A stretch of 44,235 nt of DNA from Sulfurimonas sp. (lineage in GTDB: Bacteria > Campylobacterota > Campylobacteria > Campylobacterales > Sulfurimonadaceae), in NCBI RefSeq assembly GCF_014859695.1, contig NZ_JACUTS010000008.1, forward strand, positions 1-44,235, read 5' to 3'. The notes beneath the pieces are model-generated. The model was not told the DNA's origin, did no database searches, and saw only the letters and a program-made list of their open reading frames with translations. Positions 1 to 29,543 of this stretch are shown one piece after another (position 1 is the first letter of the stretch; every line of letters starts with the position of its first letter). The translations under genes were made by a program, and so were the position numbers.

Positions 1-35
1 TGTTTTCATGCTTTAGATTAAGCAACTTTGATTCC

Positions 36-1148: not shown

Positions 1149-1181
1149 ATTGTCTCTGACACGAAATTTTTAACGCTCCGC

Positions 1182-8340: not shown

Positions 8341-8342
8341 TG

Positions 8343-9443: not shown

Positions 9444-9458
9444 TTTAATATCCTTATT

Positions 9459-10442: not shown

Positions 10443-10445
10443 TGT

Positions 10446-12011: not shown

Positions 12012-12196
12012 TTTAATCCGTATTGTTTTGCTACTTTTAACACATCAAGATAATCTAATACCAGGGACATCCGATTCGGGATTACCCCATCTTTCCATTG
12101 ATTTACTATTTGATAACCAAACCCTATGATGACCAAAAATTCTTTTTGTGTTAATTCTAGCTTATTCAATCTTGCCAAGAAATCCTCCCTTTTCAT
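12008..12196 (-). CDS. small helix-turn-helix regulator of the restriction operon
   Basis: This 62-residue protein consists almost entirely of an XRE/Cro-like helix-turn-helix: LTQKEFLVIIGFGYQIVNQW. It is the first gene of the five-gene unit and overlaps the methyltransferase start by 4 nt. Its place is like that of a controller (C) protein, which times methyltransferase and endonuclease expression, but it is shorter than typical C proteins (about 80 residues) and I cannot point to a clear C-box. The ribosome-binding site is weak (AGAAG), and the predicted promoter would leave a very short leader. Confidence 0.65.
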   Translation of the reverse strand: MKREDFLARLNKLELTQKEFLVIIGFGYQIVNQWKDGVIPNRMSLVLDYLDVLKVAKQYGLK

Positions 12197-12209
12197 TTAC
12201 TTCTGTTAT

Positions 12210-12239
12210 ATTATAAATATATTATCAAAAAAGTCCCAA
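12210..12239 (-). promoter_or_regulatory. candidate promoter of the HTH-methyltransferase-endonuclease operon
   Basis: On the minus strand TTGGGA (12234-12239), an 18-bp spacer and a perfect TATAAT (12210-12215) lie just upstream of the start codon at 12196. Transcription would start about 7 nt before the ATG, giving an almost leaderless mRNA, as seen for several restriction controller genes. This is sequence inference only. The rest of 12197-12368 is AT-rich, with no gene visible. Confidence 0.45.
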
Positions 12240-12368
12240 TTACATACTTTTATTATTTACTATAAAACAATATATCAAGGGGCTTTGTTTTAAATGATTA
12301 TAAGACAGAAGAAGTTATAACAGTCGTAGTTGCCACATAACTAGCTTTTTAACTAAGTCAACAAATAT

Positions 12369-14342: not shown

Positions 14343-14383
14343 ATTTTAATTCCCCATAACTAACTTTAGATTTTATTATATTT

Positions 14384-15112
14384 TTATTTTAAAATAAAGA
14401 TATTCGAACTCCCTTGAATCTTTGCAATTCGTCCACTTCTCTCAACTTCCCACTCGTTAGACGGGTACATCTTATTCCAAGCTTCATATTTTAGCATCTC
14501 TTGCTTAGATATCTTCATATCGTATTGCTTGTTGAAATAGAGATAGGTTCTTGCAATCACTCCACGAAGCTCTTCTCTCACTCTTGCTCTGTCAGCTTTA
14601 AAATCTACCTCGAATTTACACTCACCATACTGTCCTGTAGTTGGCAATTCAAAATCAAACCTAAAGTTGCTTCTATCTGCGTTTAATTCTCCGATGGCAG
14701 GTTGAAGATTATGTATATCGGCTTCCATAATACGGAACTCTTTGCTCACCTTTTTGCAGCACCTGCGCCCTTTATACGACTTTCCTTTAGTATTTACACA
14801 CTGAGCATCACCGTCTCTCCAGCAGCTAAACTGACGACCGAAATTTTCAGCTGGTATGATATGCTCCCACTCTATGCGTCTGGCACGTTCGTTTTTCTTG
14901 CCTTTTTTTGTATATTCGTTACGAGGAACATAACCACATGAATTTCTGTCAATCATGTTATCTTTATTGGTATAGTTATATTTACAACCGCAATAAAAGG
15001 TAACCTGATGATCTCGATGGATTTTGCGGAGTTCTTTTTTGGACTTGGAAAAGGATTCATTGTCTCCGAAAACGGAAATTATCAAAAATAAAAATGTTAG
15101 AAAAATTTTCAT
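14384..15112 (-). CDS. secreted endonuclease I (Dns/EndA/Vvn family)
   Basis: This is a sequence-nonspecific, exported DNase. A signal peptide is clear when starting at ATG 15112 (KIFLTFLFLIISVFG); an in-frame ATG at 15154 would add 14 residues before it and spoil the N-terminus. The catalytic EWEHIIPAENFG (Glu83-His84) and the later DIHNLQPAIGELNADRSN stretch match the endonuclease I metal-binding site. Eight or more cysteines (YCGC, NSCGY, FSCW, GRRCC) fit a disulphide-bonded periplasmic or secreted enzyme. Length (242) is normal. In Campylobacter, prophage-like islands carry dns genes that block natural transformation; a similar role is likely here and fits with the comM disruption. Confidence 0.88.
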   Translation of the reverse strand: MKIFLTFLFLIISVFGDNESFSKSKKELRKIHRDHQVTFYCGCKYNYTNKDNMIDRNSCGYVPRNEYTKKGKKNERARRIEWEHIIPAENFGRQFSCWRDGDAQCVNTKGKSYKGRRCCKKVSKEFRIMEADIHNLQPAIGELNADRSNFRFDFELPTTGQYGECKFEVDFKADRARVREELRGVIARTYLYFNKQYDMKISKQEMLKYEAWNKMYPSNEWEVERSGRIAKIQGSSNIFILK

Positions 15113-15440
15113 AAAAAGCTCACTTAGTTTTTTTCTAAGCAGTATATCTATCAAGCTCTATTTTTATCATTAATCCAAATAAAATTTATTGATTGAAATA
15201 TAATTTATGATAATATTAAGCTAGTTACTAAAAGATGATCTGGCTACACTTCTTAGGACATAGAAATGGTAGAATTTCTACATAAATAAGTGAGGGGTTA
15301 CAGATTACTTGAAAGGTCACTTTTTTGTTCCATAACCCCTTAAGTTTTGTGGAACTTTGTTGTTTTGACTTTTTGAACACTTTGTGGAACACAGAAAACT
15401 CGTGATAGCTAATATTGTTACAAATATAAGGACTTTAGGA
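15113..15440. other. intergenic region with inverted and direct repeats, no gene seen
   Basis: No coding frame is convincing between the endonuclease I gene and the attC-like site. The region holds a 13-bp perfect palindrome GTAGAATTTCTAC (15269-15281), an inverted pair AGGGGTTA (15293-15300) and TAACCCCT (15333-15340), and a direct repeat TTTGTGGAAC at 15346-15355 and 15381-15390 with an inverted TGTTCCA at 15326-15332. The purpose is unknown. The repeats could be binding sites or debris from cassette insertion. Confidence 0.4.
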
Positions 15441-15511
15441 ATTTAACGTTTAAAATGAGCAATCAAAAATCCGCCTGCGGTTTTTTGATTGGCTCGACTG
15501 TTTTGTTATGT
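15441..15511 (-). repeat. attC-like site (integron cassette recombination site) after the OLD gene
   Basis: Read on the minus strand, directly after the OLD stop codon, the site starts with CATAAC (R''-like) and ends with GTTAAAT, a perfect match to the R' consensus GTTRRRY. Between them lies an imperfect hairpin: AATCAAAAA-T-CCGC (15461-15474) pairs with GCGGTTTTTTGATT (15477-15490), and GAGC pairs with GCTC across a single bulged base at 15491, like the extrahelical base of attC sites. The central hairpin with its T run could also work as a rho-independent terminator, so the attC call leans on the matching site at 17652-17707. Confidence 0.55.
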
Positions 15512-17527
15512 TTACTTCAAAACTTTATTTATATTTTCAATCAAATTTTTCCATTTTTCTTGTTCTGTAGTAGCTAAGTCATTAGCTTCATGAGTTCTAG
15601 TCCATCTAATATAAGCTTTTGCTAATTTATATTTAGAAAAATCATTTATTTCACTTGAGAATAGCTCAATAATTGGTCTGTTTGGTTGCTTACTTGCAAC
15701 TTCTGAAGTGTCAATACCAAATTCTTCATTAGCTACATTGATTAATGTTTCTCTAAGAAGGTCTTCTATCTCTGCCTTTGGTACATCACAGTAGTCTTTA
15801 GTTCGTAAAATATTCTTATTTCCTAGTGTATGTACCAAGCTATCTTGTTGAGCTGCTTGGTCCCCTGCTGAATCAGAATCAAGCAAAGCTGCAACTTTAA
15901 GTTTATGAGCATGTAATATAGTGGCATAATATACGACTTTCCCAGCCGAATTAGCGAAGACTAAAGCAATTTTTTCATTTAAATTAACTATATTTTCTGC
16001 TCTTAACATCTCTGCTGTTGCTTCAATATACCAATAATCTGTAATCCCTTCTAAAACTAAATTTCTTTGTTGTGAAAATAAACTGTTTGCAAGATCATAA
16101 CCTAATGCCTCCTGTAGTGGAAGTAATCCAGCTGGATCTCCTGAGGAAAGAGTAGTATGAACTTTGGTTCCATCAGTTCTATTTTTCATTTCAACCACTC
16201 TCACTATGTCTAATTCATCAGGTCCAACAAGAAAAGGGGAATGAGTACTAAAAAGTGTTTGATTATTCTCAGCAAGTCTAGAAATAGTTTCTCTAAAATC
16301 TCGTTGCTTTAGAGCATGCAAACTCATTCCTGGTTCATCTAATAGTAATATTGCATTTTCGTGTTTATCCATCGCCTCGGAGAAAAATACTACAAAAAAT
16401 GAAACTAGCCACTGAAAACCTTCAGACCTTTGGTCTAACTCAATATCAACTCCAATATCATCTTCAACTACAACTTTCAGATATTGACCGTCTGCTGTGA
16501 CTTTAAGTTTATCCGCTTCTGGTCTATCAGGGTTAGGCATCCAAGCAGAACGAATCTCTTTTGTAAGCCTGACACTAGCAGCATTAAGTTGATAGCTTCT
16601 GTTATCTAGCTTGTCTTTGTATATTTTCAAACCCGCAACATCATTTATAGCTGGGCTAGGAGTGTTACCTAAATCTGCTAACTCTTTGGCAGTAAAACCA
16701 AGAAGTTTAAGCAAACAAAGGTTCCCATAATCATAATATTTATCATCAAGAATATTCTGTGTCACTCTTTGTGAAAGATGTGCTAAATGAATTGAAGGCT
16801 TAACCTTAAAATAGTTATTAAATAAAATAAATACTGGTAACCTAGTATGTAATATCTCTAGTACTTTAGCTTGTATTGAATTTTTTTGAATGTCTTCTTG
16901 TAGTTTATCATATCTTTTCTCTTCATCTGCATTATCTTCTTTGACAAATTTATAATTGTCATCTAGCCATTTTTTTAATGATATTTCAACCTCACCAGAT
17001 ATTAGTTTATGATCAGACCATTCAGCTGTAAGTGTTGTAAATAAAACAGTTGGCTTATTCTTATCATCGGTTGGAGAAGTTTCTAAATATTGTTCATCCA
17101 TATGTGCACACATTCTTGAAAAGCTCTTTTTTATATCTTTAAAATATAATTTTTCTGGATTATCAATTAAAGTATGTGTTGCTTCATTATTAAGTTTTCT
17201 AGAAAATTGATAGGTACAGTTGTGAAACTCTTTTGGAATTAAGGCTTTATCATGCTCGTCTAATTCGAAGTACCCTGTTACAACTATTAGTTTTGTAGGA
17301 TCAACTTTACCTGTTGTAATATCGTTATACATTGAACGAGGATAATCCCGTAATGCATCAAATCCTTCAATATCTTCTGGCTTATTTAATTGCTGTAAAG
17401 CTTTAAGTAAAACAGTTTTACCTGCTTCGTTAGGTCCTACCAAAATAGTTTTAAATTTTTCAACCTCAAATTCACCCGAATCAACAATGCTTCTATAATT
17501 TTGTACTCTTGCTTTTGTTAGTCTCAT
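15512..17527 (-). CDS. OLD-family ATPase/TOPRIM nuclease
   Basis: This is an overcoming-lysogenization-defect nuclease. The N-terminal ABC-type ATPase has Walker A GPNEAGKT (about residues 31-38) and, further on, LLLDEPGMSLH as signature/Walker B region plus FSTHSPFL. The C-terminal TOPRIM nuclease domain shows LVLEGITDYW (Glu493) and LLDSDSAG (Asp550, Asp552). Length (671) is full. No UvrD-like helicase gene is adjacent, so it is not a Gabija pair; it looks like a single-gene class 1 OLD. It is bounded on both sides by attC-like sites in the same orientation, as a gene in an integron cassette of about 2.2 kb. DNA cleavage in phage defence is inferred from the family. Confidence 0.85.
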   Translation of the reverse strand: MRLTKARVQNYRSIVDSGEFEVEKFKTILVGPNEAGKTVLLKALQQLNKPEDIEGFDALRDYPRSMYNDITTGKVDPTKLIVVTGYFELDEHDKALIPKEFHNCTYQFSRKLNNEATHTLIDNPEKLYFKDIKKSFSRMCAHMDEQYLETSPTDDKNKPTVLFTTLTAEWSDHKLISGEVEISLKKWLDDNYKFVKEDNADEEKRYDKLQEDIQKNSIQAKVLEILHTRLPVFILFNNYFKVKPSIHLAHLSQRVTQNILDDKYYDYGNLCLLKLLGFTAKELADLGNTPSPAINDVAGLKIYKDKLDNRSYQLNAASVRLTKEIRSAWMPNPDRPEADKLKVTADGQYLKVVVEDDIGVDIELDQRSEGFQWLVSFFVVFFSEAMDKHENAILLLDEPGMSLHALKQRDFRETISRLAENNQTLFSTHSPFLVGPDELDIVRVVEMKNRTDGTKVHTTLSSGDPAGLLPLQEALGYDLANSLFSQQRNLVLEGITDYWYIEATAEMLRAENIVNLNEKIALVFANSAGKVVYYATILHAHKLKVAALLDSDSAGDQAAQQDSLVHTLGNKNILRTKDYCDVPKAEIEDLLRETLINVANEEFGIDTSEVASKQPNRPIIELFSSEINDFSKYKLAKAYIRWTRTHEANDLATTEQEKWKNLIENINKVLK

Positions 17528-17651
17528 TCGCTATTTCCTCTCAATTTTTTATTATTGGTGATATCGTGCAAACTACATATGTAACTATTCATATAAGGAA
17601 CATTATAACGAAAACATATAAAATATTAAATATTAACGGAATATGATTCAA

Positions 17652-17707
17652 GTTCAACAATCTGTAGGTTTTGGAACTTTCTCTAAGTTTCAAACTAAAT
17701 TGTTAAG
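17652..17707 (-). repeat. attC-like site upstream of the OLD gene
   Basis: On the minus strand this 56-bp imperfect palindrome begins CTTAACAAT (R''-like) and ends ATTGTTGAAC, with GTTGAAC matching R' consensus GTTRRRY exactly. The inner arms GAAACTT and AAGTTCC pair around an AGAG loop. Orientation is the same as in the site at 15441-15511. Cutting after the G of each R' would release bases 15447-17657, about 2211 bp carrying only the OLD gene. No integron integrase gene is present in the window. Confidence 0.5.
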
Positions 17708-17749
17708 ATACGATATAACTTTATAACTATCGGTTACTGACACAAAACT

Positions 17750-17875
17750 CTAAACGGTCTCGTCTAATAAACTTACTTCTCCTCCAAAAACATTACAAAT
17801 AGAATGAAGAAAAGCTTGTGCTAAAATAGAATTTTTTATAGCTTCATATGTCTTTCCTTGGGTATATGTTATTTT
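17750..17875 (-). pseudogene. possible C-terminal gene remnant after the HNH gene
   Basis: An open stretch of about 40 codons, in another frame from the HNH gene and overlapping its stop, reads ...TYTQGKTYEAIKNSILAQAF... and ends with VSLLDETV and a TAG at 17750-17752. It has no start codon of its own and looks like the tail of a lost gene. It may equally be chance. No family is recognised. Confidence 0.25.
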
Positions 17876-19016
17876 ACCCGATTGATACAAAATTATGAAC
17901 GCTCCCAATATGCGTTAAATAAGGTTGCATCCTTTCCATAATTAATTTAGTTAATTTCTGGCTTTGAGCTCCTGTTAGTTGCTCACCTTCTTTTGCACCA
18001 CAGTTTTTAAAAGCATATGTAATTACTTCGTGGATAACTCGTTCTTGCTCTTTTTTTGCAGATACTGACTGATGGAATGAAACTACTTTATTAAAAGCAT
18101 CCTCAATGGCTTGAGATGAGTACATTTCATAGTTATATATAGATTCTATATCAGAATTTGAAATATTTAGCTCTATTTTGATATCTAATATTTCACCTTC
18201 TATAGGATTGATTGCATAGCAGTTTGAAAACTCATCACCATCATATTCACTAGATAGACAAGTAACTATTCTAAATGCCCCAAAGAACTCTATATACCCA
18301 AGCAACTGTCTTGTTTGTGTATTACCTTTAACAAATACACAATGAAGAGGCACCCCCTCTGGGCGATTAAGCAGAGGATCTTTATCATAATAATATCCAA
18401 AGCATGGACTACCATTTTCTTGCAGTAAGTACTCTATTGCATGTTCACAAGATTTTGGGTTAATGCCAGATTCTACGGCTAATGCAAGTGCAGACTTTAC
18501 AATTGAACGACCAGCTTGGTGTCCCCCAATGGACAGTTTCAGCTGTATCGTGTCATTGCAATAACTTGATTTTTCTTGAGCATTTTTCATAAGTTCTTCA
18601 AGATTAAGATTGGGGTATTTTCTTTTTACCCCTTTCAGCATATTTTTTGCTTCTTTAATTGTTCGAGCACTAATACTTATTTCAACTCCATCATCTATTT
18701 TTGTCTCATTATATTTTGGCTCATGAATTTTCATGCTAGCATTTGCATTAAGTTGAAGCTTATCCCCTGCTGTTGTTGTTACGATGTGAGATTGAACATT
18801 TCCCCTATCTCTTTTTATTCCAAAATAAGTGCACAAAAAACTTAATTGTTCTGTTAAATCAGACTCCCATTCATTGCCTGATTTATTATTGCAGTCAACG
18901 CAAATAAAATTTAAAATCTTCTTTTTTCCACCTATCGCATTTGGAATAATATGTTCTTTGGAGTTGTTTTCTTTCGTAATTAAAACATTGCACAATGCGC
19001 AATTGCTATTTATCAT
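17874..19016 (-). CDS. HNH-type endonuclease, promoter and RBS region displaced by IS21
   Basis: The N-terminus has a zinc-bound HNH arrangement: CALCNVLITKENNSKEHIIP (about residues 5-24), then CVDCNNKSGNEWE (about 40-52), giving two CxxC pairs around EHIIPNAIGG. The following roughly 330 residues are unassigned. I place the start at ATG 19016 (MINSN). The frame stays open another 42 codons upstream, but these are encoded by the inverted repeat of the IS, so they are not native. The IS lies only 10 bp upstream of the ATG. The ribosome-binding site now reads TGCAGGATATATCA, against an ancestral AAAAGGATATATCA rebuilt from the far side of the IS. Expression is probably altered, as the native promoter is now 2.66 kb away. 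Confidence 0.75.
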   Translation of the reverse strand: MINSNCALCNVLITKENNSKEHIIPNAIGGKKKILNFICVDCNNKSGNEWESDLTEQLSFLCTYFGIKRDRGNVQSHIVTTTAGDKLQLNANASMKIHEPKYNETKIDDGVEISISARTIKEAKNMLKGVKRKYPNLNLEELMKNAQEKSSYCNDTIQLKLSIGGHQAGRSIVKSALALAVESGINPKSCEHAIEYLLQENGSPCFGYYYDKDPLLNRPEGVPLHCVFVKGNTQTRQLLGYIEFFGAFRIVTCLSSEYDGDEFSNCYAINPIEGEILDIKIELNISNSDIESIYNYEMYSSQAIEDAFNKVVSFHQSVSAKKEQERVIHEVITYAFKNCGAKEGEQLTGAQSQKLTKLIMERMQPYLTHIGSVHNFVSIG

Positions 19017-19019
19017 TGA

Positions 19020-19026
19020 TATATCC
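19020..19026. repeat. target-site duplication, left copy (TATATCC)
   Basis: This TATATCC is repeated directly at 21687-21693 on the other side of the IS21 element. Removing the IS and one copy rebuilds the uninterrupted ribosome-binding region of the HNH gene (minus strand AAAAGGATATATCAATG). Confidence 0.85.
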
Positions 19027-19228
19027 TGCAAAAAACGGTTCAAATCGGACACTAATGTCGGTTGAGTTTGGACAGTGATGTCGGTTCTAGTCGGACAGTG
19101 GTGTCGGAAATGATTCGGACACTTTGGAGTAAAAACCGACACTTAAGTTTAATTTAATTAAACGAAGCTGAAGAGATATTTTCTAAATTTTAATAAACTC
19201 TTTGTAGATTATTTTACAAAGGTTTGAA

Positions 19229-20785
19229 ATGAGGACAATATCAATGAAACAAGTTCGTGATGTGTTAAGACTTCATAGTGTTATGAATCTCTCACTAAGA
19301 AGAATAGAGGGTGCAACAGGAGTGGCTAAAAGCACTATCTCTGATTACATCAAAAGATTCAAGGTATCAGGGTTGCATATTGAACAGATCAATGTGATTG
19401 ATGATGATGTGCTACGCTTAAAGCTTTTTGGAGAACAGATAACGGATGTTGGCTCAAAGAGAGCCATACCCGATATGAGTCTGATTCACAAAGAGATGAA
19501 ACTTCGTAAAAAAACAAAGGTTACACTACAGCTACTTTGGGAAGAGTATAAAGAGTCCAACCCAAATGGCTACAGCTATACTCAATTTCGCTTCTATTAC
19601 CGCAAATACAAACAGATGCTAAATCCATCCATGAGACAGACCCATCTAGCAGGAGAGAAGCTGTTTGTGGACTATAGTGGGCTTACTATGCCTATTTATG
19701 ATCAAAGAACAGGCGAGGCACACAAGGCACAGATATTTGTAGCAGTGCTTGGTGGCAGTGGATATACATTTGTACACGCTACGCACTCTCAAACACAGGA
19801 GGATTTTATCTACTCCCATGTGATGTGCTACAACTTCTTTGGAGGAGTGCCCAGCGTTGTAGTTCCCGACAATCTCAAAAGCGCCATTATCTCTAATAAT
19901 AAAAATGGAATTGTTGTAAATGAGAGCTACGCCGACCTTAATCGTCACTACAGCGTTGCAGTACAACCGGCTCGTCCCTATAAACCTAAGGATAAGTCCA
20001 AAGCTGAACAAGGTGTGCAAGCGATTCAAAGATATATCCTCGCAAGGTTTCGTCATCATAAATTCTTCAGTATGGATGAGCTCAATGACGCTTTGGCAAA
20101 ACTGCTTGATAGATACAACGACAAGATTGTAAAACACTTGCAAAAAAGCAGATCTGAACTCTTTAGAGAGATAGACCAGCCCTATCTAAACCCGCTTCCA
20201 ATGAACAACTATGTTTATAAGCAGTTTAAAATCGCACGAGTAAATCAAGATTATCATGTAACTCTTGAAAAATGCAACTACTCTGTACCATTCAAATACA
20301 TCAAAGAGGAGGTAGAGCTAAGATACTCCACGCAGAGTGTCTCAATCTATCATAAGCATAAACTCATAGCTACTCATCCAAGACTAAGGCACATTGGGGA
20401 TACATCTACACTGTATGAACATATGCCTAATGAACATCAATATGTAAATGAGAAGATGAATCCGGACAGACTACGGTCATGGGCTAAAAATATTGGAGAG
20501 TATAGCTGTGTATTTGTTGAAGATGCGTTTGCAGAGGTAGAACATAATCCACAAGCGTATAGAAAAATATCAGCAGTGCTCTCACTTGCAAAACTCTATG
20601 GAAACACAGAATTGGAGCTGGCACTTATGTATGCAGCCAGGATGAGAACCATTACCACAAGGTCTATCAAATCAATTCTTGATAAAAAACTCTATCTTGC
20701 AAAGAGTGCTAACAATGTACCGCCCGTGCAGCCATCACTTTTTAATACCCATACTAATATCCGCGGTGCGGATGAGTACAAATAA
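19229..20785 (+). CDS. istA: IS21-family transposase IstA
   Basis: This DDE transposase has an N-terminal helix-turn-helix (LRRIEGATGVAKSTISDYIK, about residues 27-46) for binding the terminal repeats and an integrase-fold core with Asp148 (LFVDYSG), Asp214 (VVPDNLKSA) and Glu260 (KSKAEQGVQ). At 518 residues it is full length. The start ATG 19229 was kept although a second ATG follows five codons later. It precedes istB by 23 bp, with AAAAGGA as the istB ribosome-binding site. Confidence 0.95.
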   Translation: MRTISMKQVRDVLRLHSVMNLSLRRIEGATGVAKSTISDYIKRFKVSGLHIEQINVIDDDVLRLKLFGEQITDVGSKRAIPDMSLIHKEMKLRKKTKVTLQLLWEEYKESNPNGYSYTQFRFYYRKYKQMLNPSMRQTHLAGEKLFVDYSGLTMPIYDQRTGEAHKAQIFVAVLGGSGYTFVHATHSQTQEDFIYSHVMCYNFFGGVPSVVVPDNLKSAIISNNKNGIVVNESYADLNRHYSVAVQPARPYKPKDKSKAEQGVQAIQRYILARFRHHKFFSMDELNDALAKLLDRYNDKIVKHLQKSRSELFREIDQPYLNPLPMNNYVYKQFKIARVNQDYHVTLEKCNYSVPFKYIKEEVELRYSTQSVSIYHKHKLIATHPRLRHIGDTSTLYEHMPNEHQYVNEKMNPDRLRSWAKNIGEYSCVFVEDAFAEVEHNPQAYRKISAVLSLAKLYGNTELELALMYAARMRTITTRSIKSILDKKLYLAKSANNVPPVQPSLFNTHTNIRGADEYK

Positions 20786-20808
20786 AAAAACAAAAGGAAT
20801 CCTACAAC

Positions 20809-21582
20809 ATGAATCACACACCAATCATCAATAAACTTACAGAGCTTGGATACAAAGGCTTTAAAGAGGCATATATGCATCAGATAGAAGATGTAAACTA
20901 CGACTCTATGAGCTTTAACGAGAGGCTATACCAACTCCTTGATGCACAAGATATCTCTCTTGCCAATAAGCGAATAACCATGAATCATCGACTCTCAAAA
21001 ATAAAAGACAAACAAGCGTCCCTTGATGCAGTAGATTATGACGCAAGAAGAAAAATAAATAAAACACGGATACTATCCCTGGCATCACTTGGCTTTATCC
21101 ACGCCAAGCAAAATGTCATCATTACGGGGAAAACGGGCACAGGTAAATCATATGTCGCTCAAGCTCTTGCAAATCGTGCCATATATGATAGTTATAGGGT
21201 CTATTATGTAAGAACACCATCGCTACTTGAAGAGATAAGGCTCTCTAGAATAGATGGTACTTACACAAATCTTTTAAAAAAATACTCAAGATTTCAACTG
21301 CTTATTCTTGACGACTTTGGAGTGGCTCCAATGGTAGATGATGATGCTACAAATCTCTTTGAGATTATTGAAGATAGGACGGAGATAAACTCCACAATTA
21401 TCACTTCACAACTACCTGTGAGTGAATGGTATAACTATCTCAACAACAATACAATTGCTGATGCTATTTTAGACAGAATCGTTCACTCTTCTCACAGAGT
21501 TGAACTCAGCGGCCCATCCATGAGAAAAATGAAATCTACTATTGAAAATGGTATATCTTTAGAAAAAATCCAAGAGAAATAA
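20809..21582 (+). CDS. istB: IS21-family helper ATPase IstB
   Basis: This is the AAA+ ATPase (DnaC-like) that assists IstA in target capture. Walker A is GKTGTGKS (residues 107-114) and Walker B is LLILDDFG. An N-terminal IstB-type helical region and the C-terminal HRVELSGPSMRK are typical. At 257 residues it is complete. It lies 23 bp behind istA in the same operon, inside the IS. Confidence 0.95.
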   Translation: MNHTPIINKLTELGYKGFKEAYMHQIEDVNYDSMSFNERLYQLLDAQDISLANKRITMNHRLSKIKDKQASLDAVDYDARRKINKTRILSLASLGFIHAKQNVIITGKTGTGKSYVAQALANRAIYDSYRVYYVRTPSLLEEIRLSRIDGTYTNLLKKYSRFQLLILDDFGVAPMVDDDATNLFEIIEDRTEINSTIITSQLPVSEWYNYLNNNTIADAILDRIVHSSHRVELSGPSMRKMKSTIENGISLEKIQEK

Positions 21583-21800
21583 AAAATCATTCGGACACTT
21601 ATGCTAAAATATCGCCACAGAAAATATCTCTTCTTCAACTGTCCGAATGAAACCGACAGAGGTGTCCGGATAAACCGTTATATGCATATATCCTTTTCTT
21701 GGATGATTTGTTGCTTTATTTAATCAATTCATTTGGATTATTTTAAACCTTGGTAATTTTATTGCTTCTCTCAATTTCCTAAATATTAGGTGAATATTGC

Positions 21801-21938
21801 TTATTCCGAATATTCAATTCTGCACTTTATTTTTTTACCATTTGTTTTAAAATAAAGCGTGTCCTCGTCCACTATCTTTGTAAGTATTCCTACATCAGGG
21901 AGCAGCAACACAGGCAAAAGCAATAGTAAAAATTTCAT
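21801..21938 (-). pseudogene. truncated thermonuclease (SNase-like) N-terminus
   Basis: A signal-peptide-like start (MKFLLLLLPVLLLPDVG) leads into LTKIVDEDTLYFKTNGKKIK and CRIEY, which matches the first strands of staphylococcal-nuclease-type enzymes (V-DGDT, then RLIGIDTPE). The frame then ends after YSE, where IDTPE and the catalytic Arg/Glu residues should follow. So only about 45 of some 150 residues remain. Its ATG is 1 nt after the NERD stop codon, so it was the second gene of that operon. The break lies beside the 107 bp that precede the IS21-split HNH locus, which suggests a deletion or cassette junction there. Confidence 0.55.
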
Positions 21939-21939
21939 T

Positions 21940-22722
21940 TTATATAGTCCTCGTGAATTTACATTTTGGATAACTATAGCATCCATAAAACTCGTTGCCA
22001 ACATTCGCACCTTTTTTAGCAACTCTCAAGACTAAGTTACTGCTACACCTAGGACATATAAGTACATTACTCTGTGTTTTCTTCTCATTCACTCTAGTTT
22101 TAACATTACTTACATGCTCCCTATGTGTCTTAAAACCTTTAGACAACCTACCATCTTCAATATCTTCTACAATGCGCCACATCTCTCTTGGTGTAAACAG
22201 AACCTCATTGTGAGAATCTATAAATCTAAATAGTCCTCTAGGGTATACTACATTCTCAGGCATGTCAGTTTTAAATGTAGCATCACCCACAAACACAACA
22301 ACTGAGAATATTTTAGTGCTATCAAGATCAAGTAGCTTTTCCAGTGTTTTTGTATGCTTATAGTTTTGATAGAGAGGGTTTTGAAAAGTATGTTTTTTCT
22401 TATAAATATTTTGGGTCCAAAACTTTTGGTTTTCACCACCAAAAATCCAACCCTTCATGTTCTTTGTCTCAACCACGAATATTCCATACTGAGAAACGAT
22501 TATATGGTCTATCTGAGTAGTTCCATCTTCTGTATATAGTGTTACATCACGCAGTAGTTGATACTTTTTCTTGTCGAGTTTAATATTTATTACAAGATTT
22601 AAAAATGCCTCACCTATCACACCTTTTCCAAATGAACTTTTTACAAATAAAATTATTGCTGCTATTGGAAGTAGCCACCATAGCTGAAAGAATTGGGCTA
22701 AAATATCTGACACATTTAGCAT
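21940..22722 (-). CDS. membrane-anchored NERD nuclease with topoisomerase-type zinc finger
   Basis: An N-terminal membrane helix (WWLLPIAAIILFV, about residues 14-26) is followed by a NERD (nuclease-related) domain: GVIGEAFLN, then TQIDHIIVSQYGIFVVETKN with the Asp and Glu-x-Lys of the PD-(D/E)XK-like active site. The C-terminus has a topoisomerase-I-like C4 zinc finger (CPRC ... CYSYPKC). Total is 260 residues. The function of NERD proteins is not well established; DNA or RNA processing is suggested by the fold. It follows a 70-residue gene by 1 nt and precedes the thermonuclease remnant. Confidence 0.82.
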   Translation of the reverse strand: MLNVSDILAQFFQLWWLLPIAAIILFVKSSFGKGVIGEAFLNLVINIKLDKKKYQLLRDVTLYTEDGTTQIDHIIVSQYGIFVVETKNMKGWIFGGENQKFWTQNIYKKKHTFQNPLYQNYKHTKTLEKLLDLDSTKIFSVVVFVGDATFKTDMPENVVYPRGLFRFIDSHNEVLFTPREMWRIVEDIEDGRLSKGFKTHREHVSNVKTRVNEKKTQSNVLICPRCSSNLVLRVAKKGANVGNEFYGCYSYPKCKFTRTI

Positions 22723-22723
22723 A

Positions 22724-22936
22724 CTACTTCAATTTAATCTTTATAATATTGTTATTCAAGTACTCAATTTTGTATTTATCATTATCTATTAATTGGCTAA
22801 TTTCCACTTGCTCTTTTATGGAGTCATAGCCTATAAATTGGCTTGCAGATACAATCAGTTCATCATACTTTATTTCAACATTTGTGAAATTTGAAAAATT
22901 GTTATTTTCTATTTTTTTCTTTAGTTTATTTAACAT
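22724..22936 (-). CDS. small hypothetical protein upstream of NERD gene
   Basis: This is a 70-residue acidic/lysine-rich protein with no family I recognise (ELIVSASQFIGYDSIKEQV in the middle). It ends 1 nt before the NERD start codon, which suggests coupled translation and supports it as a real gene. No clear ribosome-binding site precedes its ATG, so the start is uncertain. Confidence 0.45.
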   Translation of the reverse strand: MLNKLKKKIENNNFSNFTNVEIKYDELIVSASQFIGYDSIKEQVEISQLIDNDKYKIEYLNNNIIKIKLK

Positions 22937-23032
22937 ATAACATTGTAGCAGTAAATACTAAATATGCACTAAAGTATATTTGATTATAAAAAATCTTATA
23001 ACAAGTAAGGATTGTCCCCAATAACTAAGCCT

Positions 23033-23070
23033 AGACATATTTTTAGGTCAACAATGCACTACCTACAATG
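23033..23070. repeat. direct repeat DR1 beside the AAA remnant
   Basis: This copy shares the block AGGTCAACAATGCACTACCT exactly with DR2 at 23670-23710, plus a flanking AGACA-TATT and a trailing CAATG, about 37 bp in total. It lies 2 bp downstream of the stop codon of the AAA-ATPase remnant. AGGT/ACCT ends make a short palindrome. It does not fit the attC pattern. Confidence 0.7.
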
Positions 23071-23072
23071 AT

Positions 23073-23615
23073 CTATTGAATTATGCGTGCAAACTTTAAG
23101 AATGGATTATCATGATTCATAAAAATTTTATTGACTTTTTCTTTTGAATCAGATGTAAAGACATAAGCAATATTCTGGTGATGCTGGAATGTTCCTCTTA
23201 GCAATCCAAAAAGCCAACCATGCTCTTGTAGTGAGAAAATATCTGTAAAATTATCCATCCAAATCACAATATTCTCATGCTTATTATCTACTTTTGTAAA
23301 AAGATCTAAAACATCAGCTAGTGCATAATGATCATCTTGAGATAGTTTGAAATCAGTAGCATTGTTAAAAAATTGTTTATACTGTTCCAATAGATGTTCA
23401 GCTAAATCTTTAGCATTACGAATTTTTCGAAAGTCTATATAAGCTACTTTTTCTTTCATGGCAAGTTCAAGTCTATAATTCTTTAGTAAGACATTATTAT
23501 CTATGTTATCTTGAAGCAGAACAATACTTTGTCTGAAATCTACAATATATGAATCTAATAATGGTTGTTGCAGACCTGTGGCAAATTGCTTATACCTTTT
23601 CCCATTATTATGCAT
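23073..23615 (-). CDS. AAA-family ATPase remnant lacking the P-loop
   Basis: The 180 residues match the second half of an archaeal-type/STAND AAA ATPase: VIWMDNFTDIF as Walker B (about residues 116-126), AYVFTSDSKEKVNKIF as the sensor strand and PFLKFARIIQ at the end. The Walker A region is absent, and the protein stops right after the ATPase core, where a winged-helix domain would normally follow. It has its own GGAG ribosome-binding site 8 nt before ATG 23615 and a TATAAT-like box further up, so it may be expressed. It sits exactly between two direct repeats, suggesting a cut-down gene or a mobile cassette. Confidence 0.5.
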   Translation of the reverse strand: MHNNGKRYKQFATGLQQPLLDSYIVDFRQSIVLLQDNIDNNVLLKNYRLELAMKEKVAYIDFRKIRNAKDLAEHLLEQYKQFFNNATDFKLSQDDHYALADVLDLFTKVDNKHENIVIWMDNFTDIFSLQEHGWLFGLLRGTFQHHQNIAYVFTSDSKEKVNKIFMNHDNPFLKFARIIQ

Positions 23616-23669
23616 AAACCGACTCCAAAACTTTTGTAATTTTTAATATTATACCACCCCAATATGTCA

Positions 23670-23710
23670 AGACAACATATTCTTAGGTCAACAATGCACT
23701 ACCTGCAATG
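23670..23710. repeat. direct repeat DR2 upstream of the AAA remnant
   Basis: This is the second copy of the DR1 sequence, about 640 bp away and in the same orientation. The core at 23683-23704 matches DR1 at 23043-23064 without mismatch. No third copy was seen in the window. The roughly 95 bp between DR2 and the next gene (23711-23804) hold no gene I can support. Confidence 0.7.
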
Positions 23711-23804
23711 CTAGCATCTGCATTCCAAGGCGAGTCTGTAAAATTGATCAGGAGAGCATCTGTTAACATTTCTAAAACTTAAATTCTTTGCATGACAGTA
23801 ATAA

Positions 23805-24698
23805 TCAATGTGAGTAAACATATGTGATACGATGCAAGTATTCATTTCCAAATTTAAAAGAAAATTCATATTCATATTTGATTTCTTGATCAATTTTTTT
23901 TGGAACTGGTATTGTGAAATTTGTTTTTGACATAGGAGAGATAGGTATATTTTTAAAGTAACGATAATCCTTTTCCTTTCTAAACTTTCCATTAATTGTA
24001 ATTTCAAAAGGTATGGCTGTTTTATTATAGGCTTCAAACATTAACGCTGATTCTTCTTGGTTAACTTCAAGAAAGTAAACGGGAAACTCTTGCTTAGAAT
24101 AACTTTTTTTTAAATCTGAAGAATAGTAACCTGACAAGTTAGACCAACCTAAATTATAGATTTTTTGTAACTCTGTATTTGCTCGATGGCTTTGATACAG
24201 TTCATAACCTTTTGTCCCATAATGAAGCCCTGGAAAGATAGAGATAAATAGAACAATATATAAAAATAGTTTTGCATAGTTTGGCTGTATATCATTTAAT
24301 GTCTTGAATATTTTTCCAGTTGTGTCTTTTGATGTTAGTCTTAGAAGTTTTGAATAATCTATCACGCCATTTTCAACTAATAATAAAGCAGAAGCTTCTT
24401 CGCCTTTATGTAAACGATTTATAGATAAAGCAGATTTATCAAGTTTGATACCGGAACAACTAGAAGCTAAAAGTTCTAACTTTAGTTCAGAATCAAGATC
24501 AAGATATATTTGTTCTTCAACCTGATTGCCTTTATTAAAAATTATTACTTCACATAGAGAACCTTTCTCAGATATCGGGGTAATCTTGAATAATTTTGGC
24601 GAAACAGCATATAGTTGCCTCATTTTAAATAAGTAAGTAAAAATTGACGTAATTAAGAAAAGTAGAAACCCGATTATTAATTTATCTAAATATTCCAT
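23805..24698 (-). CDS. unknown two-helix membrane protein
   Basis: No family is recognised. A membrane helix at about residues 7-24 (LIIGFLLFLITSIFTYLF) and another near 142-157 (LFLYIVLFISIFPGLHY) enclose a mixed alpha/beta domain of about 115 residues. A further roughly 140 residues of beta-rich sequence follow, ending in EYLHRITYVYSH. It begins 19 bp after the P63C gene, so the two probably share an operon. The pairing suggests joint function, but none is known to me. Confidence 0.6.
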   Translation of the reverse strand: MEYLDKLIIGFLLFLITSIFTYLFKMRQLYAVSPKLFKITPISEKGSLCEVIIFNKGNQVEEQIYLDLDSELKLELLASSCSGIKLDKSALSINRLHKGEEASALLLVENGVIDYSKLLRLTSKDTTGKIFKTLNDIQPNYAKLFLYIVLFISIFPGLHYGTKGYELYQSHRANTELQKIYNLGWSNLSGYYSSDLKKSYSKQEFPVYFLEVNQEESALMFEAYNKTAIPFEITINGKFRKEKDYRYFKNIPISPMSKTNFTIPVPKKIDQEIKYEYEFSFKFGNEYLHRITYVYSH

Positions 24699-24717
24699 AT
24701 AAAAAAACCTATAATTA

Positions 24718-25755
24718 TCAAAACAATTTAGGTCGTATTTTGCCTTGTTTACTTTTACTCATTCTGGCATTCGGAGACTCTTGAAAAATATTATTATTCT
24801 CAGATGATACAACTTGCTTGGCTGGCTCGACAGTGTGCCCTTTTTCATTAAATTGAAAAGGTAGTTCAAACTGACCTTTTTTTCTGTCCTTTAATTTTTC
24901 AAAATTATGCCATACCTCTTTCATGTTGTCAGATAGTCGAAAAAGAGTAAGTATTTGATCAATCTGACTCTTTAAGTGTGGGTTTCCAATTTCCTCTGTT
25001 AAGAATTGATGCATACGTACTGTTTTATTCCCTGCGTCGCTTTTAGGAACTTGCTGCTTGAGTTCTTCTTTAACTCCATTTGGTAACCCGTCATAAACAA
25101 GCCGATTAGTCCATGTTCCAATTACTCCTGGTCTTTTTTTAATTCCATGAACATTAAAATCCCAACCATTTAGCCTGAAAAGTTCTCGATAAAACTCATC
25201 AGGAAATCTTTTTTGCCAAGGCAGAAGTTCTTCGCTTATATAAGCTTTTAATATCTTTTGTAATTCATCTTTTTCTCTATCGTACTGATATCCTGTAGCC
25301 TCATCTATTAATGCCGTAATTCCAAGCTTTGCGAGAGCACGCATAAGAATTTCTGCTTTAAGTGCTTTTGGTAGCTGCGAAGCCTGTAGCATATTATGTT
25401 CTCGTGCTTTTAACCACACTTCACACACTTTTGGAATAATTGTCGCGCTGTATCCCTGAAGTTTGTTTTTACCATCAGTTGTATACTCTATTGGAATCAG
25501 GTCCAATGGCTCAAAAATCCCATCTATAAAGGGTTCTAGCGCTTTTGAAGATATAAATAAAGGTAGAGGTCCTATGTCATGATTTTTGTCATCTTTTGCT
25601 CTTAGCTTATAATTTTTCCCACCAACAGATCCAAGATTTTTTATTATTCCTGCTTCACTTATTACTCTCGTACCATCTTCAAGTACAGCACATGGCATTT
25701 TCATGTCCCCTAATTCTATCTCGCCTCTATATTCAGCTTTCAATATTTTACTCAT
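24718..25755 (-). CDS. P63C-domain protein
   Basis: The middle of this 345-residue protein contains the P63C domain, seen as ISEELLPWQKRFPDEFYREL and FRLNGWDF at about residues 172-199, followed by RPGVIGTWTNRLVYDGLP. The N-terminus (VLEDGTRVISEAGIIKNLG) resembles the start of other P63C proteins, which occur on phages and mobile islands. The biochemical role of this family is not known to me. It is the first gene of a likely two-gene operon with the membrane protein behind it. Confidence 0.75.
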   Translation of the reverse strand: MSKILKAEYRGEIELGDMKMPCAVLEDGTRVISEAGIIKNLGSVGGKNYKLRAKDDKNHDIGPLPLFISSKALEPFIDGIFEPLDLIPIEYTTDGKNKLQGYSATIIPKVCEVWLKAREHNMLQASQLPKALKAEILMRALAKLGITALIDEATGYQYDREKDELQKILKAYISEELLPWQKRFPDEFYRELFRLNGWDFNVHGIKKRPGVIGTWTNRLVYDGLPNGVKEELKQQVPKSDAGNKTVRMHQFLTEEIGNPHLKSQIDQILTLFRLSDNMKEVWHNFEKLKDRKKGQFELPFQFNEKGHTVEPAKQVVSSENNNIFQESPNARMSKSKQGKIRPKLF

Positions 25756-25995
25756 TCATAAACCTTTTTCTACTAAATAATTCCCAACTATCCTCTTCGT
25801 GCTATGTGAAAGAATGTTCTGCTTATCTTATATATTTAAATTCCATTCACTCTTTAAAATTTCTATTCTTCCTTCTATATCATTTAATTTTTTCAAAAAT
25901 ACCATTGTGAAAAATAAAGATACACCAATAGGTAGAAAAGTTGAACCTCTGCTATTGCAAACCTAAAAATATCGTGCAACTAAGAATTATTTGTG

Positions 25996-26026
25996 AACAC
26001 ACTTGCTCAATACTAGCAAGCGTGTT
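25996..26026. terminator. hairpin downstream of the small gene at 26037
   Basis: AACACACTTGCT (25996-26007) pairs with AGCAAGCGTGTT (26015-26026), 11 of 12 bases, with a 7-nt loop. It sits 10 bp after the stop of the minus-strand gene ending at 26037. There is no T run, so termination would be weak; it may be an mRNA-stabilising or recombination hairpin instead. The interval 25756-26036 holds no convincing gene. Confidence 0.45.
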
Positions 26027-26036
26027 TCAATTCATA

Positions 26037-26318
26037 TTAAAGTCTTTTCTCTATGACCTCAATAAGCTTGTCTCTCATAACAACACCTGATAATGCTGGT
26101 TTATGAAGAAGATCTTCTATTTTATAAATGTCTTTCAATGTTGTTAAATTATGCTTATTCATTAAAGCTTGAATAAAATACAAAACCTCATAGCCTTCAT
26201 CTTTATCAACTTTGATGCCATCAAGCTTTCCAGCATACTCACCATCGCCTTTGTCTCTGTCCCAAGTGTAAGAATACTTATCCTGCTGCAAATTAGATTT
26301 TTTAACTTGAATAGCCAT
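26037..26318 (-). CDS. small hypothetical protein
   Basis: This 93-residue protein, from ATG 26318 (MAIQVKKSNL), contains KYSYTWDRDKGDGEYAGKLD and a C-terminal ALSGVVMRDKLIEVIEKRL. No family is recognised. The start is set by GGGAGAAG upstream; an ATG five codons earlier lies inside the preceding gene. It follows that gene by 2 nt, so the pair is translated together. Confidence 0.6.
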   Translation of the reverse strand: MAIQVKKSNLQQDKYSYTWDRDKGDGEYAGKLDGIKVDKDEGYEVLYFIQALMNKHNLTTLKDIYKIEDLLHKPALSGVVMRDKLIEVIEKRL

Positions 26319-26320
26319 AA

Positions 26321-26569
26321 TTACTTCTCCCAAGACTTTTTTGTAGACTGACTCAACACGCTTGCAGCCAATCCTTTAGTCGCTGAGTTGTACTTATCGC
26401 TTTGCATAACCTTGGAAGCTATTGTTTCCATTTTCTCACTCGTAACTTTTTTATTGCCAGTTTGCGAAAGTGCAGAACCTGCAAGCTTACGTTGAATATC
26501 AGATGAGCTTTTATTGCTCATCACCTTTGCTGCTGTTGAGGACATAGCCCCAGATGTTTGTTTTGCCAT
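26321..26569 (-). CDS. small Ser/Lys-rich hypothetical protein
   Basis: This 82-residue protein, rich in Ser, Ala and Lys, has an internal twofold pattern: SSTAAKVMSNKSSSDIQRKLAGSALSQT and later METIASKVMQSD, then KGLAASVLSQSTKK. A(S)KVM and (A/S)LSQ(T/S) elements recur about 36 residues apart, which suggests a duplicated helical unit. A strong ribosome-binding site (AAGGAG, 8 nt spacing) precedes it. It heads a two-gene unit with the 93-residue protein. Function unknown. Confidence 0.6.
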   Translation of the reverse strand: MAKQTSGAMSSTAAKVMSNKSSSDIQRKLAGSALSQTGNKKVTSEKMETIASKVMQSDKYNSATKGLAASVLSQSTKKSWEK

Positions 26570-26876: not shown

Positions 26877-28604
26877 TTATATATCTTTTATAGATTTCAA
26901 TAATCTATCAGCCCACCCATCAATGCCATTCTTACTAATATCCCCTGGATGATTTATATTCTTCTTCTTAAACCTATCAATGCTAATTTTCTGCAACCAC
27001 GAGCCTTTTTCTTGCACAAAATCAAGTAAAATATTCTTGATTAAGCTATCACTAATAGGAGTATTGTTGTTCATAGCTATTATTAAAATAGACAAACCTT
27101 TAACGCGGCTATCTCTCTCTACATCAAATACGCAGACATGCTTACCGCTATATTCTATAAAAGCACAAGAGTATGCTCGTGGTGTTGTATTATCAACGAG
27201 GAGGGATTTTGACCACTGATTGCGACCCTTACTGCTTTTGGGTTTTTGAGGAAGCATTTGTTCATCATTCACGAAATAATTGAATACCATATCTTTCTTC
27301 TCAGCTTTTTCTTGTGCTGTACCTAACATAGATAAAAAGGCTTCAAGTCCAGGTCTTTCTTTTTCATCCCATCCATCTGGTTTAGTAAAGACATCCGTTT
27401 CAATATCTGCTTGTGCAGTATCAATATCGCCAGATGATTCAGACTCAGTGAAACTGACATCCGTTTCATAATCAACTTTATCCGTAGTTTGGATTTCATC
27501 TACTTCTTCTTCAAAATCAAGTATTTCATAGGTAACTTCTTTATCTTTTAAATCTATTCGACCGTCTTCTTTAGGTTCTGAATATATATCAACAGGGGTA
27601 AATATACCACTTGGTACCCTATCATTAATCACGCCTGATATATTGCTATCTAGCGTATTCTCTATGCTTCCAAGTTTTATAGGATTTGCTCCGATTTTTT
27701 TACTTTGTCTATAGATTGTTAATTTTTCAAAAGGATACTTAGAATCTTCAGCTAGTATCTCTAACGCCAATATTCTATCATCTGATAACACAACTCCTCT
27801 GTAACGAATATATGCTAAATCATAAAAAGGAAATAATGCACTGAGTGCAGCAGTATTATGGGTAGGGTTAATCTTTAATTCTTTTAAATCTGCATCAATT
27901 TCTCTTTTACTTTTCGCTAAATCTTTATATACACGATGAAAGTTATAATTAGCATACTCATCAACTGCGAATCTAAATATTTCAGCCCCATCACTAGCAC
28001 ATGCATTTGGTTTTAAAACTATTGATGCATTTCCATCTTCATCCCTACTATAACTTTTATACAAACCCTTTAATGCTGTTTCATTAGTTATATAATGTGC
28101 CATAACTTGTTTAGACATGGACGATGAACGATAATAATAATATTGAGCTATTACATATGATGGAAATAGTATCTTGTTACCATCAATATCAGTATATTCC
28201 AATAATCTTTGCTCTCTACTTCTTTTTAGCAAATTATATGTATGTATTGTAAGGGGGATGTCCTCAGGGAGTGAAAAATATTCTTCATCTTTATAAAAAT
28301 CCAAACTTTCTCGTTTCATAGTAAATAGTGCATCATGTTTGGGTACGTCAATAATTGATATAAATTCTTCGCCAATAGATTTGCTTGTTACGCTTTTATT
28401 ATATATTATAGATCCAAGAGAGATATCAGGTGATTCTTTTATATTCCTGTATATAATTTTAAACTCTTTTGTTTTTAAATTTTTTATAATGAATATTATG
28501 TAAAAATCTTGCGTTTTAATGTTGAAATGGTTAACGTTGTTATACCAAACTACTAAGTGTTCTCCATCCGGCAAGTTATCTATTGTAAAATCTGAAATTC
28601 TCAT
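26877..28604 (-). CDS. tnsE: TnsE-like target-selection protein
   Basis: This 575-residue protein resembles Tn7 TnsE, which directs insertion into replicating or conjugating DNA through the sliding clamp. The C-terminal end NINHPGDISKNGIDGWADRL aligns in pattern with TnsE's NHPKGL...MEGWAERVV, and the central ILFPSYVIAQYYYYRSSSMS corresponds to TnsE's helix before its cysteines. Residues about 355-430 are an acidic low-complexity linker, also as in TnsE. It starts 66 bp inside the transposon end with an AAGGAG ribosome-binding site and is transcribed inward. It is separated from tnsABC-tniQ by 19 kb of cargo, unlike Tn7, where tnsE follows tnsD. Confidence 0.72.
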   Translation of the reverse strand: MRISDFTIDNLPDGEHLVVWYNNVNHFNIKTQDFYIIFIIKNLKTKEFKIIYRNIKESPDISLGSIIYNKSVTSKSIGEEFISIIDVPKHDALFTMKRESLDFYKDEEYFSLPEDIPLTIHTYNLLKRSREQRLLEYTDIDGNKILFPSYVIAQYYYYRSSSMSKQVMAHYITNETALKGLYKSYSRDEDGNASIVLKPNACASDGAEIFRFAVDEYANYNFHRVYKDLAKSKREIDADLKELKINPTHNTAALSALFPFYDLAYIRYRGVVLSDDRILALEILAEDSKYPFEKLTIYRQSKKIGANPIKLGSIENTLDSNISGVINDRVPSGIFTPVDIYSEPKEDGRIDLKDKEVTYEILDFEEEVDEIQTTDKVDYETDVSFTESESSGDIDTAQADIETDVFTKPDGWDEKERPGLEAFLSMLGTAQEKAEKKDMVFNYFVNDEQMLPQKPKSSKGRNQWSKSLLVDNTTPRAYSCAFIEYSGKHVCVFDVERDSRVKGLSILIIAMNNNTPISDSLIKNILLDFVQEKGSWLQKISIDRFKKKNINHPGDISKNGIDGWADRLLKSIKDI

Positions 28605-28670
28605 GTAGCTCTCCTTGTGATTTAAGTCGCATTAGTTATGGTAAAGTCGCATTAATTGTGATAAATGACA
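28605..28670 (-). mobile_element. Tn7-like transposon end inside comM
   Basis: The end reads inward from 28670 as TGTCATTTATCAC... and carries two similar 17-bp repeats: AAGTCGCATTAATTGTG (28644-28660) and AAGTCGCATTAGTTATG (28624-28640) on the + strand, 20 bp apart. A TGT...ACA terminus and repeated subterminal sites are what TnsB-type transposases use. The adjacent chromosomal bases TCCCC (28671-28675) should be the 5-bp target duplication; the partner copy lies outside the window. Confidence 0.85.
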
Positions 28671-29543
28671 TCCCCCTCCAAATATACTTGCCGTAGTTGA
28701 TGAGTGATGAGGAGCACGAAAGCTTCTAAGAGGTCTGAACTCAGGCTCTTTGGCTTCAAGAGCATCAAGTTTTGCAATTTCTAAAATATCATCACTGCTA
28801 AGAGGAGGTAAGATGTATCGCAATCTTTGCGCAATCATACTTTTTCCACAACCGGGACTTCCCTCAAGAAGCAGGTTGTGAAATCCCGCTGCGCTTATAA
28901 GCGCAGCTCTCTTTGCAACTTCTTGCCCCTTAACATCTAAAAAATCCTCTTTATACCCCTCATCAAAATAGTACTCCTCTTCATCAATTACATAACTTGG
29001 ATAATCTATCTTTTTATAAGTGCAATTTGGCAGCGCATTTGCATAGTTTTTAAGAAGTTCTATCGCTTCATCCAATCTTTTAACCCCATAAAACTCTATG
29101 TTTGGTATCTTAGATAGTTTCTCCAAGCTCTCAAAAGGAACAACCGCTTTTTTGATAATTTTTTGATTTGCAAGAGAGAGCATAAGCGGATAGAGCTGGA
29201 TATTCTCTTTTACGGCTCCATCAAGCCCCAATTCTCCAAAAACAAACCACTCGCTCAGATCATCCTCGAGATAATCAAGCGCGATTAAGAGGGCAATGCT
29301 CAAATCAAATTGACTCCCCTCTTTTTTAACATCACTCGGGGCAAGATTTATGGTGATTCTTTTTGGTGGAAAGATAAATTCGTTACTCAGTAGTGCAGAT
29401 TTTACGCGCTCTTTTGCCTCATTTATGGAAGCACTTGCCATCCCAACCACACTAAAAGAGGGAAGTCCCTTTGTGAGCGTAGATTCGACATGTACGACTT
29501 TTGCTTCTATGCCCTCATAGGTGGCGCAGGAAACCATTTTCAT
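28671..29543 (-). pseudogene. comM: comM (yifB) 5' part, interrupted by the island
   Basis: ComM is a Mg-chelatase-like AAA+ branch-migration helicase that aids natural transformation. The first about 290 of some 500 residues are intact: MVSCATYEGIEAKVVHVE start, the FSVVGMASASINEAKERVKS segment, Walker A EGSPGCGKSM and FRAPHHSSTTASIFGGG. Translation then runs into the transposon end and stops at 28632 after a 14-residue foreign tail. The expected downstream Walker B part is missing from the window. AGAGG lies 8 nt before the ATG. It is the last gene of the tig-clpP-def cluster, an order also seen in Helicobacter. Confidence 0.9.

Follow-up and report, generated by a model that had tools for sequence, protein, structure and literature searches.

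comM is already known as a target of Tn7-like elements and hosts them repeatedly, Tn6022 and Tsy being directed to it by TnsF and type I-B1 CASTs by crRNA. Loss of ComM lowers transformation in Acinetobacter. The backbone of the Tn6022 and AbaR islands in this genus comprises TnsA, TnsB, TnsC, TniQ, TnsF and TnsE, of which TnsF is needed for comM targeting (Faure et al., 2023; PMC10293859), and the target-site duplication published for the Acinetobacter comM site is ACCGC (PMC3691203). TnsE is described as nearly universal in comM-targeting elements, and elsewhere it acts as a plasmid/lagging-strand selector (PMC11406308). A literature search that did not cover the supplementary tables of the large surveys revealed no description of Campylobacterota elements targeting comM, nor of elements that do so without TnsF; those tables may already list TnsF-bearing members, and even the TnsF-less elements designated group A below.

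The island in comM of Sulfurimonas sp.

The window analysed corresponds to the entire contig C98 (44,235 bp) of Sulfurimonas sp. GCF_014859695.1, a genome of 186 contigs and 2.37 Mb. The 5' part of comM (codons 1-291) is located on the minus strand at 28671..29543, matching TIGR00368 over positions 7-284 (E 1.2e-66) as well as PF13541 and PF01078. Its last codons read ...AGT ATA TTT GGA GGG GGA (SIF-GGA-GGG-GGA) and its last base is 28671, while the element starts at base 28670 of the minus strand and reads TGTCATTTATCACAATTAATGCGACTTTACCATAACTAATGCGACTT; the coding break thus lies exactly at the TGTCATTTATCAC terminus, as an earlier note on this DNA had claimed. The left, comM-5'-proximal end (28618..28670, minus strand) is composed of the TGT terminus and two TnsB-type repeats, which the same note had pointed out and which are real: they have a period of 20 bp, are identical at 17/20 positions and share the perfect 11-mer TAATGCGACTT. 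This 11-mer was found genome-wide (2.37 Mb) at these two repeats only, and the 13-bp terminus has a single occurrence in the whole genome.

The 3' half of comM (TIGR00368 positions 286-499) forms the first bases of contig C139 (G000:C139:1-645), which starts with GGGGA|AGTCACAAGGC. The target-site duplication is therefore GGGGA, located at 28671..28675 of the minus strand (TCCCC on the plus strand), with its second copy at bases 1-5 of C139. The expectation that the comM 3' half would be preceded by TCCCC and an inverted transposon end held for the duplication, read as GGGGA on the comM strand; exact and degenerate pattern searches of the assembly revealed no far end of this element, and contig C98 ends inside cargo. 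The first base of C139 is also that of the duplication, which would fit a branch of the assembly graph at this point, and it is possible that the sample mixes occupied and empty comM alleles. Joining of the two flanks with a single GGGGA restored a stop-free comM open reading frame of 503 codons, and comparison with the intact comM of same-genus genomes, which the note had proposed, showed that the rejoined gene is collinear with them, with 70-78% nucleotide identity in full-length alignments. The glycine codons at the insertion point (Gly-Gly-Gly) are conserved and precede the Walker B codons of comM by 57 bp.

The Tn6022-type island of A. baumannii NZ_CP104448 is inserted at the same base as the Sulfurimonas element, with the junction GGG GGC GGT^TGTCAG...AAATGACA^GCGGT and the duplication GCGGT. 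As GCGGT is the reverse complement of ACCGC, this junction agrees with the published duplication. An insertion of Tn6022 about 100 bp away, which is obtained when ACCGC is counted on the forward strand, was refuted by the same junction. The data hence support the note's central claim of a Tn7-like island precisely inserted in the chromosomal comM of a member of the Campylobacterota; the nucleotide is the one used by Tn6022/AbaR in Acinetobacter.

Pfam analyses revealed one operon-like block (3299-7601, plus strand), as found in Tn7-like transposons, which encodes TnsA (3299..3949; PF08722, PF08721), the DDE transposase TnsB (3936..5810; PF00665, PF09299), the TniB-type AAA ATPase TnsC (5788..6684; PF05621, E 1.9e-67) and a short TniQ of 305 amino acids (6684..7601; PF06527). 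In the alignment, this TniQ is without the C-terminal HTH-like region present in other TniQs of the phylum. An HEPN gene on the opposite strand follows tniQ, at the position occupied by tnsF in Tn6022. The tnsE-like gene (26877..28604, minus strand), predicted to encode 575 amino acids with a TnsE_C domain (PF18623, E 3.3e-8), is on the same strand as the truncated comM reading frame and 27 bp behind its end, so that the comM promoter could drive it. A structure model of this TnsE, calculated with AlphaFold from the single sequence, had a mean pLDDT of 33. In several elements tnsE starts at approximately -4 to +27 bp from the truncated comM stop on the same strand (window 28604-28632; L099 976-997; L091 1023-1026; L092 998-1001; L095 8623-8639); in other copies the two genes are 80-390 bp apart or have an open reading frame between them.

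A CBASS-like cargo (1..2917) separates tnsA from the far end missing in the assembly and has a protease-like open reading frame cut by the contig end, a SAVED effector and an oligonucleotide cyclase, as judged from PF01972, PF18145 and the PADLOC matches to Cyclase (E 1.2e-83) and SAVED. The remaining cargo (7687..26569) contains an HEPN/GmrSD pair, a BsuBI/PstI-type restriction-modification pair, endonuclease I, an OLD-family ATPase-TOPRIM protein, HNH, NERD and P63C genes, and a putative IS21-like element at 19229-21582, predicted from its istA/istB-type open reading frames, bordered on the left by a 23-bp repeat in three copies (window 19036-19107). The cargo consists largely of defence genes.

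Recurrence of the insertion in Campylobacterota

A search of 397 genomes of the phylum for TniQ gave, besides Sulfurimonas sp., 43 positive ones, in which comM was then examined; 12 of these had comM split at profile position ~284. Including Sulfurimonas sp. and one Arcobacter MAG, the gene is split at this site in 14 Campylobacterota genomes, and comM targeting in this phylum is therefore real and widespread. The identical base, TGT...ACA ends and matching 5-bp duplications were found in G029, G053, G146, G075, G126, G243, G373, G154, G234 and G305. The break is shifted by 1 bp in G276, with the duplication AGGAA, and the MAG, Arcobacter sp. BM504, has an insertion at the identical base, with TGT...ACA ends and the duplication GAGGT. 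Both ends and the 5-bp duplication were readable in 12 of the 13 relatives; G073 has a 5' junction as in the others and an altered 3' junction, in which a matching duplication was not read.

The junctions follow the pattern GGN GGN GGN^TGT...ACA^, with a 5-bp duplication taken from the host's own codons; those observed, besides AGGAA in G276, were GGGGA, GAGGG, GCGGT, GTGGC, GAGGC, GAGGT, GTGGA and GCGGC. Such ends, together with repeated TnsB-type sites and a 5-bp duplication, are those of a Tn7-like transposon; the left end and both copies of the duplication were read in the Sulfurimonas genome itself, and both ends in its relatives. The chance that 12 further random comM insertions would fall within 1 bp is ~4e-33, a value that serves only as a guide because the elements are related to each other. 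In Campylobacterota, Tn7-like elements have repeatedly inserted in comM, both TnsF-bearing, Tn6022-like ones and TnsF-less ones.

Other breaks of comM were also observed. A second insertion region lies at profile position ~345-364 (L102-L106 in G386, G299 and G315), with elements whose TnsF is shorter (386-431 amino acids), and a third site near codon 44 (L108-L110 and L151 in G182 and G323) is occupied by a separate TnsF-less clade (TnsB 100/100). The comM gene of G370 (L107) is interrupted at profile position ~211-216 by 14 kb of inserted DNA, and Tn7 core genes were not recognised in this DNA. An apparent 1.1-kb "mini-insertion" in comM of G243 was really a scaffold gap of Ns. Searches for TnsB and TnsE in viral contigs, and for TnsE in plasmids and phages, gave no matches.

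TnsF absence and the selection of the target

Three groups of elements were distinguished at the site: group A comprises the Sulfurimonas element, G146, G276, five genomes of the genus g9 and BM504, the named relatives being one Campylobacteraceae MAG and one Arcobacter MAG; group B comprises G029 and G053; and group C, which bears TnsF, comprises G126, G234 and G305. TnsF lies beside tniQ in group C and in the A. baumannii element. A TnsF profile, which recognised true members with E values of 1e-150 or better (3e-55 for a Xanthomonas plasmid copy), gave no convincing match when the Sulfurimonas element as assembled and the complete elements of G146, G075, G276, G029 and G053 were translated in six frames. 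At E<=1 the profile had no match in eleven whole genomes of groups A and B, and the two controls gave 7e-212. As the far end of the Sulfurimonas element is unassembled, TnsF in its missing part is excluded by the whole-assembly search only, which is blind to unassembled DNA.

All complete TnsF-less elements have TnsA, TnsB, TnsC, TniQ and TnsE in common; the TnsE of the Sulfurimonas element is 27-30% identical to those of other group-A comM elements, and the TnsE of group B was recognised and linked to group A by profile comparison only. In the TnsB tree, the TnsF-bearing elements form a closed clade (100/99) that does not include group A. Group A, with the Sulfurimonas TnsB, forms a clade of its own (99/97), weakly joined to the TnsF clade as sister (79/91), and group B a separate clade (100/100). 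In the TniQ tree, group A had little support as a unit (56/0). In G053, one copy of the group-B element occupies comM and a second one is located on a 102-kb plasmid (L063, contig C2, NZ_AP022827), the latter being in line with a plasmid pathway.

Group A is probably a Campylobacterota lineage of TnsF-less, Tn7-like transposons that insert site-specifically in comM by means of a selector other than TnsF. In this model, TnsA and TnsB would act as a cut-and-paste transposase and, with the TnsC ATPase, the short TniQ adaptor and TnsE, would carry out site-specific transposition into the glycine codons of comM, whereby the 5-bp duplication would arise and comM would be inactivated. The recognition of comM, done by TnsF in Tn6022, would come from a different protein. 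The group-A TnsE, together with the short TniQ, is the first candidate for this role, followed by the TniQ core, alone or with a host factor.

The alternative that these elements descend from a Tn6022 relative that has lost TnsF, their comM copies being relics of the TnsF era spread by homologous recombination, agrees with the shared base, with the shared layout, in which tnsE lies towards the comM 5' part and the core genes lie opposite, and with the weak union of group A and the TnsF clade (79/91). We consider it unlikely in view of the genus g9, in which tnsB is 99.3-100% identical among the five genomes, while the comM flanks (300-400 bp on each side) are only 87-94% (5') and 88-96% (3') identical and the duplications differ between genomes (GTGGC, GAGGC or GAGGT), the two copies agreeing within the genome in 4/5 genomes. 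Near-identical elements in diverged comM alleles with different paired duplications are what separate transpositions of mobile elements would leave, since a single old shared insertion would require paired identical mutations in both copies of the duplication. These sequence comparisons strongly suggest that TnsF-less elements reached comM recently. Group B, likewise without TnsF, is moreover placed elsewhere in the tree. A guide RNA, as used at the comM att site by type I-B1 CASTs (PMC11406308), is highly improbable here: no cas-like family was present among the proteins searched, Rfam gave no match, the longest comM-element match was 12-14 nt, the same as in shuffles, and no 20-mer with <=3 mismatches was found near the Sulfurimonas site.

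With respect to the protein that would recognise comM instead, TnsE may well be the selector, an assignment that we make tentatively because, apart from TnsA, TnsB, TnsC and TniQ, it alone is common to every complete group-A element, and some TniQs of the group have only ~193 amino acids. A small TniQ is regarded as a hallmark of elements with an additional selector (Faure et al., PMC10293859), and by this reasoning TnsE is the only conserved candidate. The mini-TniQs of 193-198 amino acids (G276, L136 and L137) end just after the last zinc-finger cysteine pair; that of G276, 193 amino acids long, had been considered a pseudogene, an idea dropped as it recurs in two further genomes. In G276, a gene for a XerC/D-type tyrosine recombinase directly follows the mini-tniQ (L062 10222-11160) and is not conserved in other group-A elements. 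The R end of L136, a group-A relative, is not flanked by comM, and comM is thus not its only destination.

A selector role for the TniQ core (~195 first residues), which would recognise comM perhaps with a host DNA-binding factor and leave to TnsE the plasmid pathway only, is conceivable to a somewhat lesser degree, and solutions other than these two are less likely still. It would explain why the TniQ/TnsB clade predicts comM insertion: comM is split in 8/8 group-A sample genomes, and the sampled genomes having only the long-TniQ "other" clade keep comM intact, except for G370 with its insertion devoid of a Tn7 core. Furthermore, TnsE of the same broad family is present in elements outside comM (G256 and G194, whose genomes keep an intact comM), which speaks against TnsE, as does its plasmid/lagging-strand role elsewhere (PMC11406308). 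On the other hand, residues outside the zinc-finger core are absent or unconserved in group A, and the small TniQ itself is taken as the mark of an additional selector (PMC10293859). That TnsE with a minimal TniQ offers an alternative protein-based way, independent of TnsF, of reaching this comM nucleotide, as a sequence-specific chromosomal selector, is a more doubtful proposal; if true, TnsE, seen so far as a plasmid/replication-fork selector, became or always was a chromosomal one.

A lineage in which neither TnsF nor a guide was detected and whose TniQ can be as small as ~193 amino acids, but which reaches the identical comM base, has a bearing on how target selectors are exchanged among Tn7-like elements, and in a system of five proteins the comM selector could be found by simple drop-out. 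In addition, ComM has been lost repeatedly in Campylobacterota, in the present case through an island rich in defence genes.

Comparison with described Tn7-like systems

The Sulfurimonas element resembles Tn6022/AbaR in its comM target, the identical base, the TGT...ACA ends, the 5-bp duplication and its island-like cargo, and also in having tnsE apart from the core, comM-5'-proximal and on the comM strand (26877-28604), with the core at the opposite side (3299-7601). It differs in that no TnsF, the pseudo-tyrosine-recombinase selector, lies beside tniQ; its TniQ has 305 amino acids (193-325 in the group) versus 369-380; its TnsB is only 35-41% identical and falls outside the Tn6022 clade; and its tnsA is parted from the far end by the CBASS-like cargo. 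As TnsF is the comM selector of Tn6022, its absence means that this element is not Tn6022 proper, which sharpens the alternative of the earlier note, an extended host range or a convergent choice of site.

The TnsF-bearing, Tn6022-like elements of Campylobacterota share with it the phylum, the comM target and the Tns core; those of G126, G234 and G305 occupy the same base and those of G386, G299 and G315 the second comM site. They differ in their TnsF of 386-487 amino acids adjoining tniQ and in their separate TnsB clade. Prototypic Tn7 (TnsA-E, glmS) has likewise a two-subunit transposase, TnsC, a TniQ-domain protein, a 5-bp duplication and a TnsE with the PF18623 C-terminal domain. Its att site is different: the Sulfurimonas element lies in comM instead of glmS, has the 305-aa TniQ in place of a long TnsD bearing a DNA-binding extension, and carries tnsE outside the core operon. 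Type I-B1 CASTs have the comM att site in common with it, but they are targeted there by crRNA, whereas neither CRISPR-Cas genes nor a guide to the target were found in the Sulfurimonas element.
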